DNA of 64,000 nucleotides. Origin: an uncultured Methanobrevibacter sp. Its GTDB lineage: Archaea; Methanobacteriota; Methanobacteria; Methanobacteriales; Methanobacteriaceae. The notes under the pieces are model-generated. The model was given only the letters and a program-made list of their open reading frames with translations, was not told where the DNA came from and made no database searches. The stretch spans positions 1 to 64,000 of the forward strand of contig CACYJH010000002.1 of NCBI GenBank assembly GCA_902774685.1, in the 5' to 3' direction. The translations under genes and the position numbers were made by a program. Positions 22,873 through 28,982 of the stretch are shown here, one piece after another (position 1 is the stretch's first letter; the number at the start of each line of letters is the position of its first letter).

Positions 22873-23249
22873 GTTATGCCTCATTTATTGTAAATTTAAA
22901 AGTATCTGAATCTTGAAAAAATTTTTTCAAGTAAACGTCTTTTGTCCTTTTGGTATTAATAATATTTAGTATTAATAATATAAAAGTTTTTAATAAATTT
23001 ATTAGATTTTTAAAAAAATTGCTCTAAAAAAGATAAAAAAATTTCCAATATACTGTAAAAAAGTTACAGGAAAATGATAAAAAATCATAAAAAAGTTATA
23101 GAGAATAAGAAAAAAGTGACTGGAAATGGGAAAAAATGATGAAAAAGTTGTGGAGAAGGGCAAAAAAGTAACTTGAAAAGGGAGTGATTGATATGTATAA
23201 TAAAAAAATAGAAAATATTAGAATATTATTATAATATATTACAATAATA
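22873..23249. other. Intergenic region with helically phased A-tracts
   Basis: No gene is present. A-runs of five or six bases start at 23057, 23079, 23089, 23110, 23131, 23142 and 23162, offsets of 0, 22, 32, 53, 74, 85 and 105, which track multiples of 10.5 bp. Degenerate units such as AAAAAAGTTACAGG and AAAAAAGTGACTGG build this array. On the minus strand these are T-tracts following the DUF1786 gene. Confidence 0.65.
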
Positions 23250-24526: not shown

Positions 24527-25828
24527 ATGCAATACAGAATTGATTTAACTAATGATGAAGTACCAACCAAATGGTATAATATTAACGCTGATTTACCTGT
24601 AGAACTTCCTGCTCCTAAAAACAGTGAAGGAAAAGATCAAATAGGCACATTACCTCAAATATTCGTAAACGAATGTCTTAATCAAGAGTTCGCTACTGAA
24701 AGATACATATCCATTCCAAAGGAAGTAAGAGAACTCTACCAAAGATTAGGAAGACCTACTCCTTTATGTAGAGCAAGAGGATTGGAAGAAAAGCTAAACA
24801 CTCCTGCAAAGATTTATTATAAGCGGGAGGACACTTCTCCTACAGGATCTCACAAGTTGAACAGTGCAATAGCTCAAGCATACTATGCTAAAAAAGAAGG
24901 TATTGAAAGAATTACCACCGAAACCGGTGCAGGACAATGGGGTACCGCTTTATCCCTTGCAGCATCCATGATGGGAATTGACTGTACAGTCTATATGGTA
25001 AGGGTTTCATACGATCAAAAGCCATTCAGAAAAACAATCATGCAATTGTATGATGGTGATGTCTATGCTTCCCCAAGTGAAAACACCGAAGTCGGTAGAA
25101 AAGTTCTTGAAGAACATCCAGACACTCCTGGTTCCCTTGGAATTGCTATTTCTGAAGCTGTAGAAGATGCTTTAACTGATGATAAAGTAAAATACACCTT
25201 AGGAAGTGTATTGAACCACGTTATCTTGCATCAAACAACAATCGGTCAGGAAATTAAATTACAACTTGAAAAAGTTGAAGAAGAGCCAGACACAATGATT
25301 GCTTGTGTAGGTGGAGGAAGTAACTTTGGTGGATCATTGTTCCCATTCATTAAGGATAAAATCCAAGGAAACTCCGATACTGAATTCATTGCTGTAGAAC
25401 CTTCTGCATGTCCTACATTAACCCAAGGGGAATACAGATACGACTTTGGAGACGAAGTAGGATTCACACCACTTTTAAAGATGTTTACATTAGGACACAA
25501 CTTCGTTGCTCCTTCTGTACATGCAGGTGGACTTAGATACCACGGTATGAACACACAAGTATCCTTGCTTAGAGAATTAGGATACATCAATCCGGTAGCC
25601 GTTCACCAAAGAGATGTATTCGCAGCAGGTAAAATGTTTGCAATGTGCGAAGGAGTTATCCCAGCACCTGAAACAAACCATGCAATCAAAGCAGCTATTG
25701 ATGAAGCTAAAAAATGTAAGGAAACCGGCGAAGAAAAAACCATTGTCGTCAACTTCTCAGGACATGGACTTATGGACTTCAAAGGTTATGGAAGCTTTAT
25801 GGATGGAACTATGGAAAACTCCAAATAA
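24527..25828 (+). CDS. trpB2: Tryptophan synthase beta chain 2 (TrpB2)
   Basis: This 433-residue PLP enzyme is of the long TrpB2 type. The PLP lysine is in SPTGSHKLNSA (about residue 110), and the phosphate-binding loop CVGGGSNFGG is near 260. It has the TrpB2-type N-terminal extension (YNINADLPVELPAP) and the C-terminal motif NFSGHGLMD. It condenses indole or serine to tryptophan; TrpB2 proteins act without the usual TrpA partner or salvage indole. No other trp genes flank it. The promoter carries TRP-box-like repeats, and a hairpin terminator follows. Confidence 0.93.
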   Translation: MQYRIDLTNDEVPTKWYNINADLPVELPAPKNSEGKDQIGTLPQIFVNECLNQEFATERYISIPKEVRELYQRLGRPTPLCRARGLEEKLNTPAKIYYKREDTSPTGSHKLNSAIAQAYYAKKEGIERITTETGAGQWGTALSLAASMMGIDCTVYMVRVSYDQKPFRKTIMQLYDGDVYASPSENTEVGRKVLEEHPDTPGSLGIAISEAVEDALTDDKVKYTLGSVLNHVILHQTTIGQEIKLQLEKVEEEPDTMIACVGGGSNFGGSLFPFIKDKIQGNSDTEFIAVEPSACPTLTQGEYRYDFGDEVGFTPLLKMFTLGHNFVAPSVHAGGLRYHGMNTQVSLLRELGYINPVAVHQRDVFAAGKMFAMCEGVIPAPETNHAIKAAIDEAKKCKETGEEKTIVVNFSGHGLMDFKGYGSFMDGTMENSK

Positions 25829-26097: not shown

Positions 26098-26350
26098 TAA
26101 AAAATACTAGTTATAACTTATAATTTTTAAGAAAATTTAGTATAATTTTTAGTTATAAGTGATAAGTTATAACTTATAAGTTATAAAATTATAAGAAATA
26201 ACTTAAAACTAAAAACTTATAAATGATAAATTATAAAGTAAAAGTAATAAGATATAACTTAAAACTTATATAGTATAACTTATAAATTATAAAGTATAAG
26301 ATATAAGTAATAAATTATTAGAATTAACTTATAAAATTTAACTTATACTA
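26098..26350. repeat. AT-only repeat array upstream of the ParA gene, candidate partition or origin site
   Basis: ATAACTTATAA occurs at 26113-26123, 26169-26179 and 26275-26285, with near copies at about 26253-26270, 26325 and 26340. The palindrome ATAAGTTATAACTTAT lies at 26163-26178. The array fills the intergenic space before the ParA gene, where plasmid and chromosomal systems often keep centromere sites. The rest of the gap (25919-26097 and 26351-26389) is AT-rich with no gene. Low complexity could explain part of it. Confidence 0.55.
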
Positions 26351-26389
26351 TCACTTTATTTTAGAAAAATACTAAGGAGAATTAATATA

Positions 26390-27163
26390 ATGGGAGAAAC
26401 AATCGCAGTAATGAATCAAAAAGGCGGATGTGGAAAAACAACAACTGTAGTAAATTTAGCAACATCCCTTGCTGCTATGGGTAAGGCAGTGCTTGTTGTG
26501 GATATGGATCCACAGGCAAATGCAACAACAAGCTTCGGAATCAACAAGACAGAAATCAAAAAGACCGTATACACCGCATTGGTAAATGAATGCAGTGTTC
26601 AAAAGGCAACAATTCCTACAAAAATTGAAAACCTTTTCATATTGCCAAGCAATATTGAATTAAGTGGAATCGAAGTTGAGTTAAGCAAGGAAGCGAATTA
26701 TCATATCGTGCTTAAAAACTTGCTTGAACCTATAAAAGGCATCTTTGATTATATCATAATTGACTTGCCTCCATCACTTGGAGTTATCACAATAAATTCA
26801 TTGATTGCTGCTGACAGCGTATTGATACCTATTCAAGCGGAGTATTTTGCACTTGAAGGATTGGCAGATTTGATGAACACAATCAAGCTTGTTGAAACCA
26901 GATTAAGAAGCCCAACTCCTATCAAAGGAATACTCTTAACATTATATGATGCAAGGACAAGATTAGGAAGGGAAGTTTATTCCGAATTGAAGAAATACTT
27001 CAAGGACACTGAACACATATTCAAGACAGTCATTCCAAGAAATGTGCGTTTGGCAGAAGCTCCAAGTTACGGAAAGCCATGTATAGTATATGACCCTGAA
27101 AGCAAGGGATCAATAGCTTACTTGAAATTGGCAAAGGAAATCCTGGAAATGGATAAGAAATGA
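26390..27163 (+). CDS. ParA/Soj-type partition ATPase
   Basis: This 257-residue protein has the deviant Walker A of ParA/MinD proteins, KGGCGKTTT (residues 11-19, with the signature lysine at 11). Walker A' is VVDMDPQANAT near 37-47 and Walker B is YIIIDLPPS near 121-129. The length fits a Soj-type ATPase without an N-terminal DNA-binding extension. It dimerises on ATP and binds DNA non-specifically to position cargo such as a replicated origin. The start follows GGAG. The next gene, 77 bases downstream, has a ParB-like N-terminus, so the two probably form a partition pair. Confidence 0.92.
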   Translation: MGETIAVMNQKGGCGKTTTVVNLATSLAAMGKAVLVVDMDPQANATTSFGINKTEIKKTVYTALVNECSVQKATIPTKIENLFILPSNIELSGIEVELSKEANYHIVLKNLLEPIKGIFDYIIIDLPPSLGVITINSLIAADSVLIPIQAEYFALEGLADLMNTIKLVETRLRSPTPIKGILLTLYDARTRLGREVYSELKKYFKDTEHIFKTVIPRNVRLAEAPSYGKPCIVYDPESKGSIAYLKLAKEILEMDKK

Positions 27164-27240
27164 AGATAATGATTATTTATTAAACAAATTTATAGAATTC
27201 TTGATTTTAAAAAAAATAAAATAAAACAAGGTTTGGTATT

Positions 27241-28029
27241 ATGGCTAAAAAAGAAAGAAGATCAGGTTTAGGAAAAGGATTGGATTCCTTAATTCCTAAA
27301 ATCGAAGAGACAGAAGTGGAAGAAGGCATCAGCTTAGAGGACATATTGAAAAAATCTGAAGAGAAGTCAGAAGATTCAGCAAAAGATGATGAGGTAGATG
27401 ATACCCTTGATGAAATTGCTGATGATACTGAAGATGAAACTGATGATGATGCTGATGATGACGATGAAATAATATTTGATGAAGAGCCTGATGAAGATGA
27501 TAAGGAATTGATCTTCCCTGAAGATGAGGATGAATCTGAAGAAAAGATATTGGTTGAAGAATCAGATGTTGAAAAGTATGTGGAAGAAATAGCTGAAGAG
27601 GAAGTGAGCGAAGATGATTACCTTGAAGACACCTCAATATACACTACAGTTTTCCACAATGATGATGAAAAAATTGCAGATGAAAATGATGGAGAAACAG
27701 CTGTCGATTTAGGTGTAAAAAATATTGATTCTGCAATTAATTTAAATGAAGAGGAAGAAGAAACTACTAAAATAATTGATGATTCCGTTAATTTAAAAGA
27801 AGGTACTAGTTTCTTAACTGAAAAAGAAGAAAAACTGATAGATGAAGTAATCGAAACTGTAGAAAATAATCCAAGAATCACCTTATGGTCAGCAAGATCC
27901 GCTGCAGTTTTAAGATATTTGAGAAAAACCGAACCTGAATTCAGCATAAGCAGTGAAGCATCAAATCTCATAGATGCTGCAATAGCTGAAAAGTATCCGG
28001 AAATCTGGACCTTGTTCAATCATTTATGA
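27241..28029 (+). CDS. ParB-like partner: ParA-interaction motif, acidic linker, novel C-terminal domain
   Basis: This 262-residue protein begins KKERRSGLGKGLDSLIPK, close to the N-terminal GLGRGLDALI motif with which ParB stimulates ParA. Residues about 20-190 are very acidic (Asp/Glu runs) and look disordered. The C-terminus (about 195-262) is a compact helical domain including RITLWSARSAAVLRYLRKT and EASNLIDAAIAEKYPEIW. The ParB/Srx CTPase core and the helix-turn-helix are absent. Position directly after ParA supports a partition-adaptor role. The C-terminal domain may bind DNA or dimerise; I do not recognise it. Confidence 0.7.
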   Translation: MAKKERRSGLGKGLDSLIPKIEETEVEEGISLEDILKKSEEKSEDSAKDDEVDDTLDEIADDTEDETDDDADDDDEIIFDEEPDEDDKELIFPEDEDESEEKILVEESDVEKYVEEIAEEEVSEDDYLEDTSIYTTVFHNDDEKIADENDGETAVDLGVKNIDSAINLNEEEEETTKIIDDSVNLKEGTSFLTEKEEKLIDEVIETVENNPRITLWSARSAAVLRYLRKTEPEFSISSEASNLIDAAIAEKYPEIWTLFNHL

Positions 28030-28104: not shown

Positions 28105-28220
28105 TATCTAAAATAAAATAACTTAGCCAAATACCTATTTATGATAATAATTTAACCATGATAAATTAAAAATTATAAAAAATTATATTTCAAAAACAAA
28201 AACACGAAATGGGGATTAAT

Positions 28221-28982
28221 ATGAAATTGGGATTTTCTTTACTTTCACTTTTTATGAAAGATGTGGATGAGATGCTTTCAATAGCTGAAGATAATGGATT
28301 CGATAGTGTTGAACTATTGGCGGAAGGCCCATATAGGCCAGATGAAATGCTTGGCAACAAGGAAATCACTGAACCATTCCACAGTTATGACTTGGACATC
28401 TATATGCATGCAGTGAATGTGGACATAAATCTTGCAAGCCTCAACCAGGGAATCCGTAAGGAATCAGTAAAGCAGACAAAGGACTGTCTTGATCTTGCAG
28501 ATGAGATAGGTGCAATAGGCATCACCGCACACCCTGGAAAAATAGGAAGACCTGAAAAGTACCTAAGGGACATGGCACTTGAATTCCTGACAGAATCCAC
28601 TCATGAGCTTGTTGCATATGCAGAGGATAAGGAAGCTAAAATCTCAATTGAAAACATGCCTGAACGTTTCTCATATCTTGGAAACCGTGCATATGAACTT
28701 GAAAACCTCACCAACGAAACAGGCTGTTCAATCACAATAGATTTAGGCCATGTAAACACCTGTGAAGACCAGGAAAGCTTCTTTAAAATCCCTAACATTC
28801 TTTATAATCACATAAACGACAATGATGGGAAAAAGGACAAGCACCAAGCAATCGGTGACGGCACCCTTGACTTGAATCTCTTGAAGCATGTGAAACATGG
28901 AATTATCGAACTGAACAATTTCGATAATGTGATGAAAAGCAAAAAGGTAATAGAAGATTTTTTAAAGGAAAATAAATTATAA
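28221..28982 (+). CDS. Sugar phosphate isomerase/epimerase-like TIM-barrel protein (AP endonuclease family 2)
   Basis: This 253-residue protein matches the xylose-isomerase-like TIM barrel superfamily. Visible metal-site segments are ITAHPGKIG near 99, ISIENMPERF near 140, ITIDLGHVN near 178 and NHINDNDGKKDKHQAIGDG near 198. The residues fit binding of one or more divalent metals. Activity could be sugar isomerase/epimerase or endonuclease IV-like; sequence alone does not decide. ATG 28221 is preferred over ATG 28209 because GGGGAT lies just before it and the barrel starts with MKLGFSLL. Confidence 0.78.
   Translation: MKLGFSLLSLFMKDVDEMLSIAEDNGFDSVELLAEGPYRPDEMLGNKEITEPFHSYDLDIYMHAVNVDINLASLNQGIRKESVKQTKDCLDLADEIGAIGITAHPGKIGRPEKYLRDMALEFLTESTHELVAYAEDKEAKISIENMPERFSYLGNRAYELENLTNETGCSITIDLGHVNTCEDQESFFKIPNILYNHINDNDGKKDKHQAIGDGTLDLNLLKHVKHGIIELNNFDNVMKSKKVIEDFLKENKL

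Follow-up and report, generated by a model that had tools for sequence, protein, structure and literature searches.

The 64-kb stretch of DNA analyzed here (the window) belongs to a contig, G000:C2, from the chromosome of a Methanobacteriaceae member. The locus of interest, which lies entirely on the + strand, runs from an upstream gene through an AT-rich intergenic stretch to a ParA gene, a partner gene and a downstream gene.

24527-25828, + strand: PLP-dependent tryptophan-synthase-beta-like gene, upstream of the array
26110..26348, no strand: heptad array, a run of 34 adjoining 7-bp units with the consensus STTATAA; putative centromere and operator to which SegB would bind
26390..27163, + strand: segA (parA), Soj-type deviant Walker ATPase, 257 aa
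27241..28029, + strand: segB, the partner protein, 262 aa
27265..27294, + strand: peptide GLGKGLDSLI near the N-terminus (residues 9-18), putatively ParA-activating like its counterpart in bacterial ParB (motif residues from PMC12462528)
27301..27810, + strand: acidic linker, probably disordered (from composition and pLDDT), about residues 21-190
27814..28026, + strand: SegB-type ribbon-helix-helix DNA-binding and dimerization domain, by homology (PDB 7DUV, 7DV2), residues 192-262
28209-28982, + strand: TIM-barrel gene, downstream of the partner gene

As a preliminary description of this DNA had it, a ParA, here recognized as Soj-like, is encoded beside a partner in which a ParB-like peptide is followed by an extended acidic linker and then by a C-terminal domain. 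The two genes are 77 bp apart in the window; in many relatives the gap is about 0 or the genes overlap. A plasmid or prophage origin of the locus was considered and rejected: the Pfam-matched window neighbors of segAB belong to metabolic or housekeeping families, a phage collection gave zero matches, and the single plasmid match was remote. A 52-bp tandem repeat (2.4 copies) lies between genes at 23057-23183 and is unrelated to the heptads.

What is the partner protein? It had been described as a ParB-like protein in which the ParB core is replaced. Searches of Pfam and NCBIfam returned no family name for the window partner and no ParB family. Over its last 70 residues the protein shows homology to SegB of Sulfolobus, which binds centromeres and has a ribbon-helix-helix fold. 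We therefore reject a ParB that lost its core in favor of a homologue of SegB, and the locus is thus segAB. Family profiles compared with the PDB recovered Sulfolobus SegB (7DUV, 7DV2) at E-values of 4e-12 and 1e-13, and a phmmer search of the PDB with a single short thermophile relative recovered it at 1e-9; the profile matches span the SegB ribbon-helix-helix region (NPRITLWS, two helices, KYPEIW). The C-terminal domain is the only part modeled with confidence by AlphaFold (pLDDT 71-91 from residue 191), while the linker is mostly below 60. The domain is folded, but it is not the anonymous helical domain that had been described, since it is homologous to a ribbon-helix-helix protein. In an AF2 monomer of the C-terminal domain the strand is absent, the best Foldseek match of this model, SegB 7DV2 (E 2.7, rmsd 12), is not significant, and Foldseek found no significant match for either the full-length or the C-terminal model. 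Because the monomer model does not settle the fold, our assignment of the domain to the ribbon-helix-helix fold rests on its homology to SegB.

How widely is the pair distributed? The SegB C-terminal domain is present in 136 of the 152 genomes of the phylum sample and in 20/20 genera. The preliminary description had made its reading depend on the partner accompanying parA elsewhere in the Methanobacteriales, and it does so: ParA lies directly upstream of segB on the same strand in 136/142 loci, and the six others are contig ends, split hits or a plasmid case. segAB is a core gene pair of the class. In one near-complete genome that apparently lacks SegB (G098), an assembly gap spans the end of parA and the position of segB. 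Four other genomes without SegB also lack a close ParA, which points to a gap or to joint loss. Outside the class the SegB domain is sparse (11/295 genomes of the Archaeoglobales phylum), and it also occurs in one Micrarchaeota assembly and two viral contigs.

We note several unusual loci. On the Methanohalobium plasmid pMETEV01 (L092:1694-3219), a SegB-like protein is encoded 5 bp downstream of a non-ParA ATPase, AAA+/ORC- or ExeA-like by eye, so that the SegB domain is paired with a different motor; TATAAAG repeats lie about 190 bp upstream. In genome G139 (C1; L045:7680-8751) an additional, diverged ParA-SegB pair (51% and 41% identity), which lacks a heptad array, sits directly upstream of a NurA-HerA-Mre11-Rad50-like DNA-repair operon. 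The Micrarchaeota assembly carries three similar ParA-SegB copies on separate contigs (L087-L089), which are very similar to viral contig L091. Their N-terminal peptide and heptad differ from the methanogen ones, the Micrarchaeota heptads reading C-C-T-W-A-A/G, and these copies perhaps represent a plasmid or virus family.

How might SegB act on its ATPase? The window ParA matches AAA_31 in Pfam (E 2e-65), the solved structures nearest to it are bacterial (8RAY at E 1e-74, and Soj proteins), and no SegA is among its PDB matches at E-values up to 1e-20. The window partner carries GLGKGLDSLIPK at residues 9-20, in which L10, K12, L14, L17 and I18 are spaced as L11, R13, L15, L18 and I19 of M. xanthus ParB, residues shown to bind and activate ParA (PMC12462528). 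This residue-for-residue match bears out the earlier identification of the N-terminus as a ParB-type ParA-activating motif. The peptide, LG[K/R]GLxxLI, is nearly invariant in methanogen SegBs and is found in Archaeoglobi-type SegBs as well. Likewise, the ParA pocket residues Y81, E117, L150, L187 and L192 (M. xanthus numbering) are invariant (122/122), the catalytic residues D58, D60 and N64 are kept in the same 122/122, and V116, L152 and L155 are hydrophobic with a single exception; most of these ParAs have lost the acidic E82 and D110. The S. solfataricus SegA/SegB interface is described as different (PMC12462528). Judged by these correspondences, methanogen SegBs bear the ParA-activating peptide of bacterial ParB, and their ParAs retain the matching pocket, a combination that looks new. 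In the Methanothermobacter-type loci L033-L035 the SegB peptide is LGMGLDALI, with Met in place of the central Lys/Arg. That position is important for ATPase stimulation in M. xanthus ParB, where Met would be expected to weaken stimulation.

The linker that follows the peptide comprises about 170 acidic residues in the window partner (clade median 39% D/E). It is 24-37 residues long in thermophilic relatives, 38-59 residues and basic in Methanosphaera-type genomes, and 79-175 and 135-249 residues, 39% acidic, in two Methanobrevibacter-type genera (the genus names are inferred). Judging from these proteins, the long acidic linker is a lineage-specific expansion, that is, a spacer whose length depends on the lineage. 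We speculate that it could influence condensation or nonspecific binding.

An AT repeat array directly before parA had been reported with an 11-bp unit. The array is present and more regular than described, and its unit is 7 bp: autocorrelation peaks at lags of 7, 14, 21 and 28 only (z 7.1, 7.2, 5.6 and 5.0), and 32 of the 33 steps between its 34 heptads are exactly 7 bp, with one 1-bp slip. The heptad chain score is 40.8, compared with a maximum of 6 in 300 first-order resamples, and the array is by far the strongest heptad-periodic stretch of the window (0.334; the next reaches 0.126). Four exact copies of the double unit TTATAA-S-TTATAA exist in the 2.07-Mb genome, and three of these belong to the array. 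The array, with its double unit laid out like the SegB site of Sulfolobus (see below), is the second feature of the locus that looks new. The consensus STTATAA is common to the class, and heptad periodicity upstream of parA exceeds all 100 resamples in 109/134 loci. About nine heptads end just before parA in Methanothermobacter-type genomes, and only about four precede it in Methanosphaera-type genomes. Could the array be a functionless low-complexity repeat of an AT-rich genome? The intergenic stretch is indeed 84% AT, yet we find this hardly credible: the periodicity is confined to multiples of 7 bp, the array before parA ranks first among heptad sites, both in the window and in 16/20 long loci (L041 among them, weakly), and it is kept in that place in the Methanothermobacter-type genomes, which are about 50% GC. 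Furthermore, when genomes were scanned with a 27-bp pattern of four heptads, up to 3 mismatches being allowed, the reversed-pattern control gave 0 matches in G148 and G150. The array before segA is probably the DNA site gripped by the segregation system.

Where else do such arrays occur? In Methanothermobacter-type genomes the scan found four or five strong arrays, all within 90 kb of orc1/cdc6-1 and none elsewhere. For example, G148 has five arrays, 8.7-84 kb from orc1/cdc6-1, and no others. G144, G143 and G150 present the same picture, with a range across these genomes of 9-88 kb; the sites are homologous, so the four genomes count as one lineage rather than four independent ones. A cluster of nine TTACASTTGAAA repeats, which we take to be an origin-type motif, lies just upstream of cdc6 in G144, separate from the heptads. 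The distance from segAB itself to orc1/cdc6-1 is no more than 10% of half a genome in 12/14 complete genomes; it is 64 kb in the window genome, and 203 and 309 kb in two genomes. The exceptions to origin proximity are G002, G151 and the scattered arrays of G118, and in one Methanosphaera-type genome the arrays are far from orc1/cdc6-1. In G042 a second array lies at a distance of 11 kb from parA. GC skew is noisy: in sampled 20-kb stretches of G144, too noisy to rely on, a local minimum falls near 1295 kb, among the arrays and 35 kb from cdc6, and in G042 one falls at about +10 kb. In G118 the extra heptad arrays far from orc1/cdc6-1 are at C1 1310250, 1340818, 2303817, 2313796 and 2334073; two of them lie at 20-50 kb from another cdc6 gene (1290455), which perhaps marks a second origin.

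These distributions bear on whether the array is only an operator through which SegB represses segAB, the pair acting at other, degenerate sites or in gene regulation. The largest arrays do sit between parA and the gene preceding it, the 120-kb contig of the window genome yielded no second strong array, and the Sulfolobus SegB sites upstream of segA have likewise been discussed as possibly regulatory (PMC5120986). We nevertheless consider an operator-only role unlikely. Thirty-four heptads far exceed what an operator needs, and in the Methanothermobacter-type genomes 3-4 additional arrays, all close to the origin, are present, those examined being intergenic. G151 has six perfect TTATAA heptad arrays (C1 1073605-1136481; L226, L227, L228) that are 30-95 kb away from segAB, and its own parA is not preceded by any heptad signal. 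Five of these six arrays lie inside a conserved repeated flank of about 80 bp and so may have spread as a repeat, possibly a dispersed element carrying the site. A second alternative, which we regard as very improbable, is that the pair positions some other cargo, in the manner of McdAB or PomXYZ, and that the array is the site of a different DNA-binding protein, for instance Orc1/Cdc6. A long disordered linker in a ParA partner would be reminiscent of protein-cargo adaptors, and segAB is near orc1/cdc6-1; against this, the homologue of the C-terminal domain binds DNA site-specifically, the TTACASTTGAAA repeats that adjoin cdc6 are separate from the heptads, and the heptad layout is that of the SegB motif, as discussed below.

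Our preferred reading, which we hold to be probable, is that the locus encodes a chromosomal SegAB partition system whose centromere consists of SegB-coated heptad arrays near the origin. We infer that SegB binds the heptads, stimulates the SegA ATPase and takes part in chromosome movement. First, SegB dimers would bind the contiguous STTATAA heptads through the C-terminal ribbon-helix-helix domain, probably with about one dimer per heptad by analogy with the omega protein of pSM19035. Second, SegB would coat the 34-heptad array before segA, and further origin-near arrays in relatives, to form a partition complex from which the flexible acidic linkers would display many GLGKGLDSLI peptides. 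SegB probably also autoregulates the operon through the array in front of segA. Several observations speak against this reading: the C-terminal model lacks the strand, the window contig has no second strong array, Methanosphaera-type genomes have few heptads before parA and in one case far-off arrays, segAB is distant from orc1/cdc6-1 in two genomes, and Methanothermobacter-type SegB has Met in its peptide. The preliminary description had envisaged a distinct archaeal partition system with its own centromere; a partition-type pair and a centromere-like array are indeed present, but with SegB as its partner protein, the system falls within the archaeal SegAB type already known and is not wholly distinct. 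For the Methanobacteria as a whole we propose, less firmly but as the likely arrangement, an origin-proximal chromosomal heptad centromere that is bound by SegB, with SegA driven by a bacterial ParB-type peptide-pocket switch.

If true, this would be the first defined euryarchaeal chromosome centromere, as far as we found, and would unite archaeal and bacterial partition designs in a natural hybrid. In the literature searched, which was largely open-access and leaves priority uncertain, we found no report of heptad arrays or of a ParB-type peptide on SegB, and none of binding or segregation by a euryarchaeal SegB. A review of the field (PMC5120986) counts the appearance of archaeal centromeres, and the spread and diversity of SegAB among Euryarchaeota, among its open questions. 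The present analysis offers a concrete sequence, a probable binder and an array conserved throughout an order to which the main methanogens of gut and rumen belong.

Finally, how does this system compare with known ones? As in Saccharolobus/Sulfolobus SegAB (PDB 7DUV, 7DV2; PMC5120986, PMC12284271), a ParA-type ATPase gene is followed by segB on the same strand, and SegB has a C-terminal domain homologous to the Sulfolobus ribbon-helix-helix domain and a disordered N-terminus. The ChIP motif of S. solfataricus SegB is TCTAGA-S-TCTAGA (PMC12284271), two palindromic hexamers one base apart, and therefore equivalent to two heptads of the same layout as TTATAA-S-TTATAA; the bases differ. Sulfolobus has single dispersed 13-bp sites, whereas the methanogens have contiguous arrays of up to 34 heptads, a Soj-like ParA, and a SegB with the bacterial peptide and a long acidic linker. 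An RHH centromere binder, as proposed here for SegB, and contiguous 7-bp repeats overlapping the ParA-gene promoter also characterize the delta/omega ParABS of plasmid pSM19035, in which the RHH ParB requires at least four such repeats for ATPase activation (PMC9499535). The window array exceeds this number, a likeness of architecture and not of family membership: the delta/omega system is from a bacterial plasmid, with WATCACW heptads and a different N-terminal peptide on omega, and we saw no sequence kinship between omega and SegB. With bacterial chromosomal ParABS (Soj/Spo0J), the methanogen system shares a ParA with the conserved ParB pocket, an identical activating peptide and origin-near sites, but its partner has a predicted RHH domain in place of the ParB/CTPase fold and HTH, and its candidate sites are heptad arrays rather than parS. 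A survey of ParB folds found chromosomal ParABS to be generally absent in archaea (PMC12704722), which is consistent with SegB filling the role of ParB in methanogens. The bacterial ParA-activating peptide would here be carried by an unrelated DNA-binding domain, and the ParA switch thus appears to be separable from the CTPase clamp.
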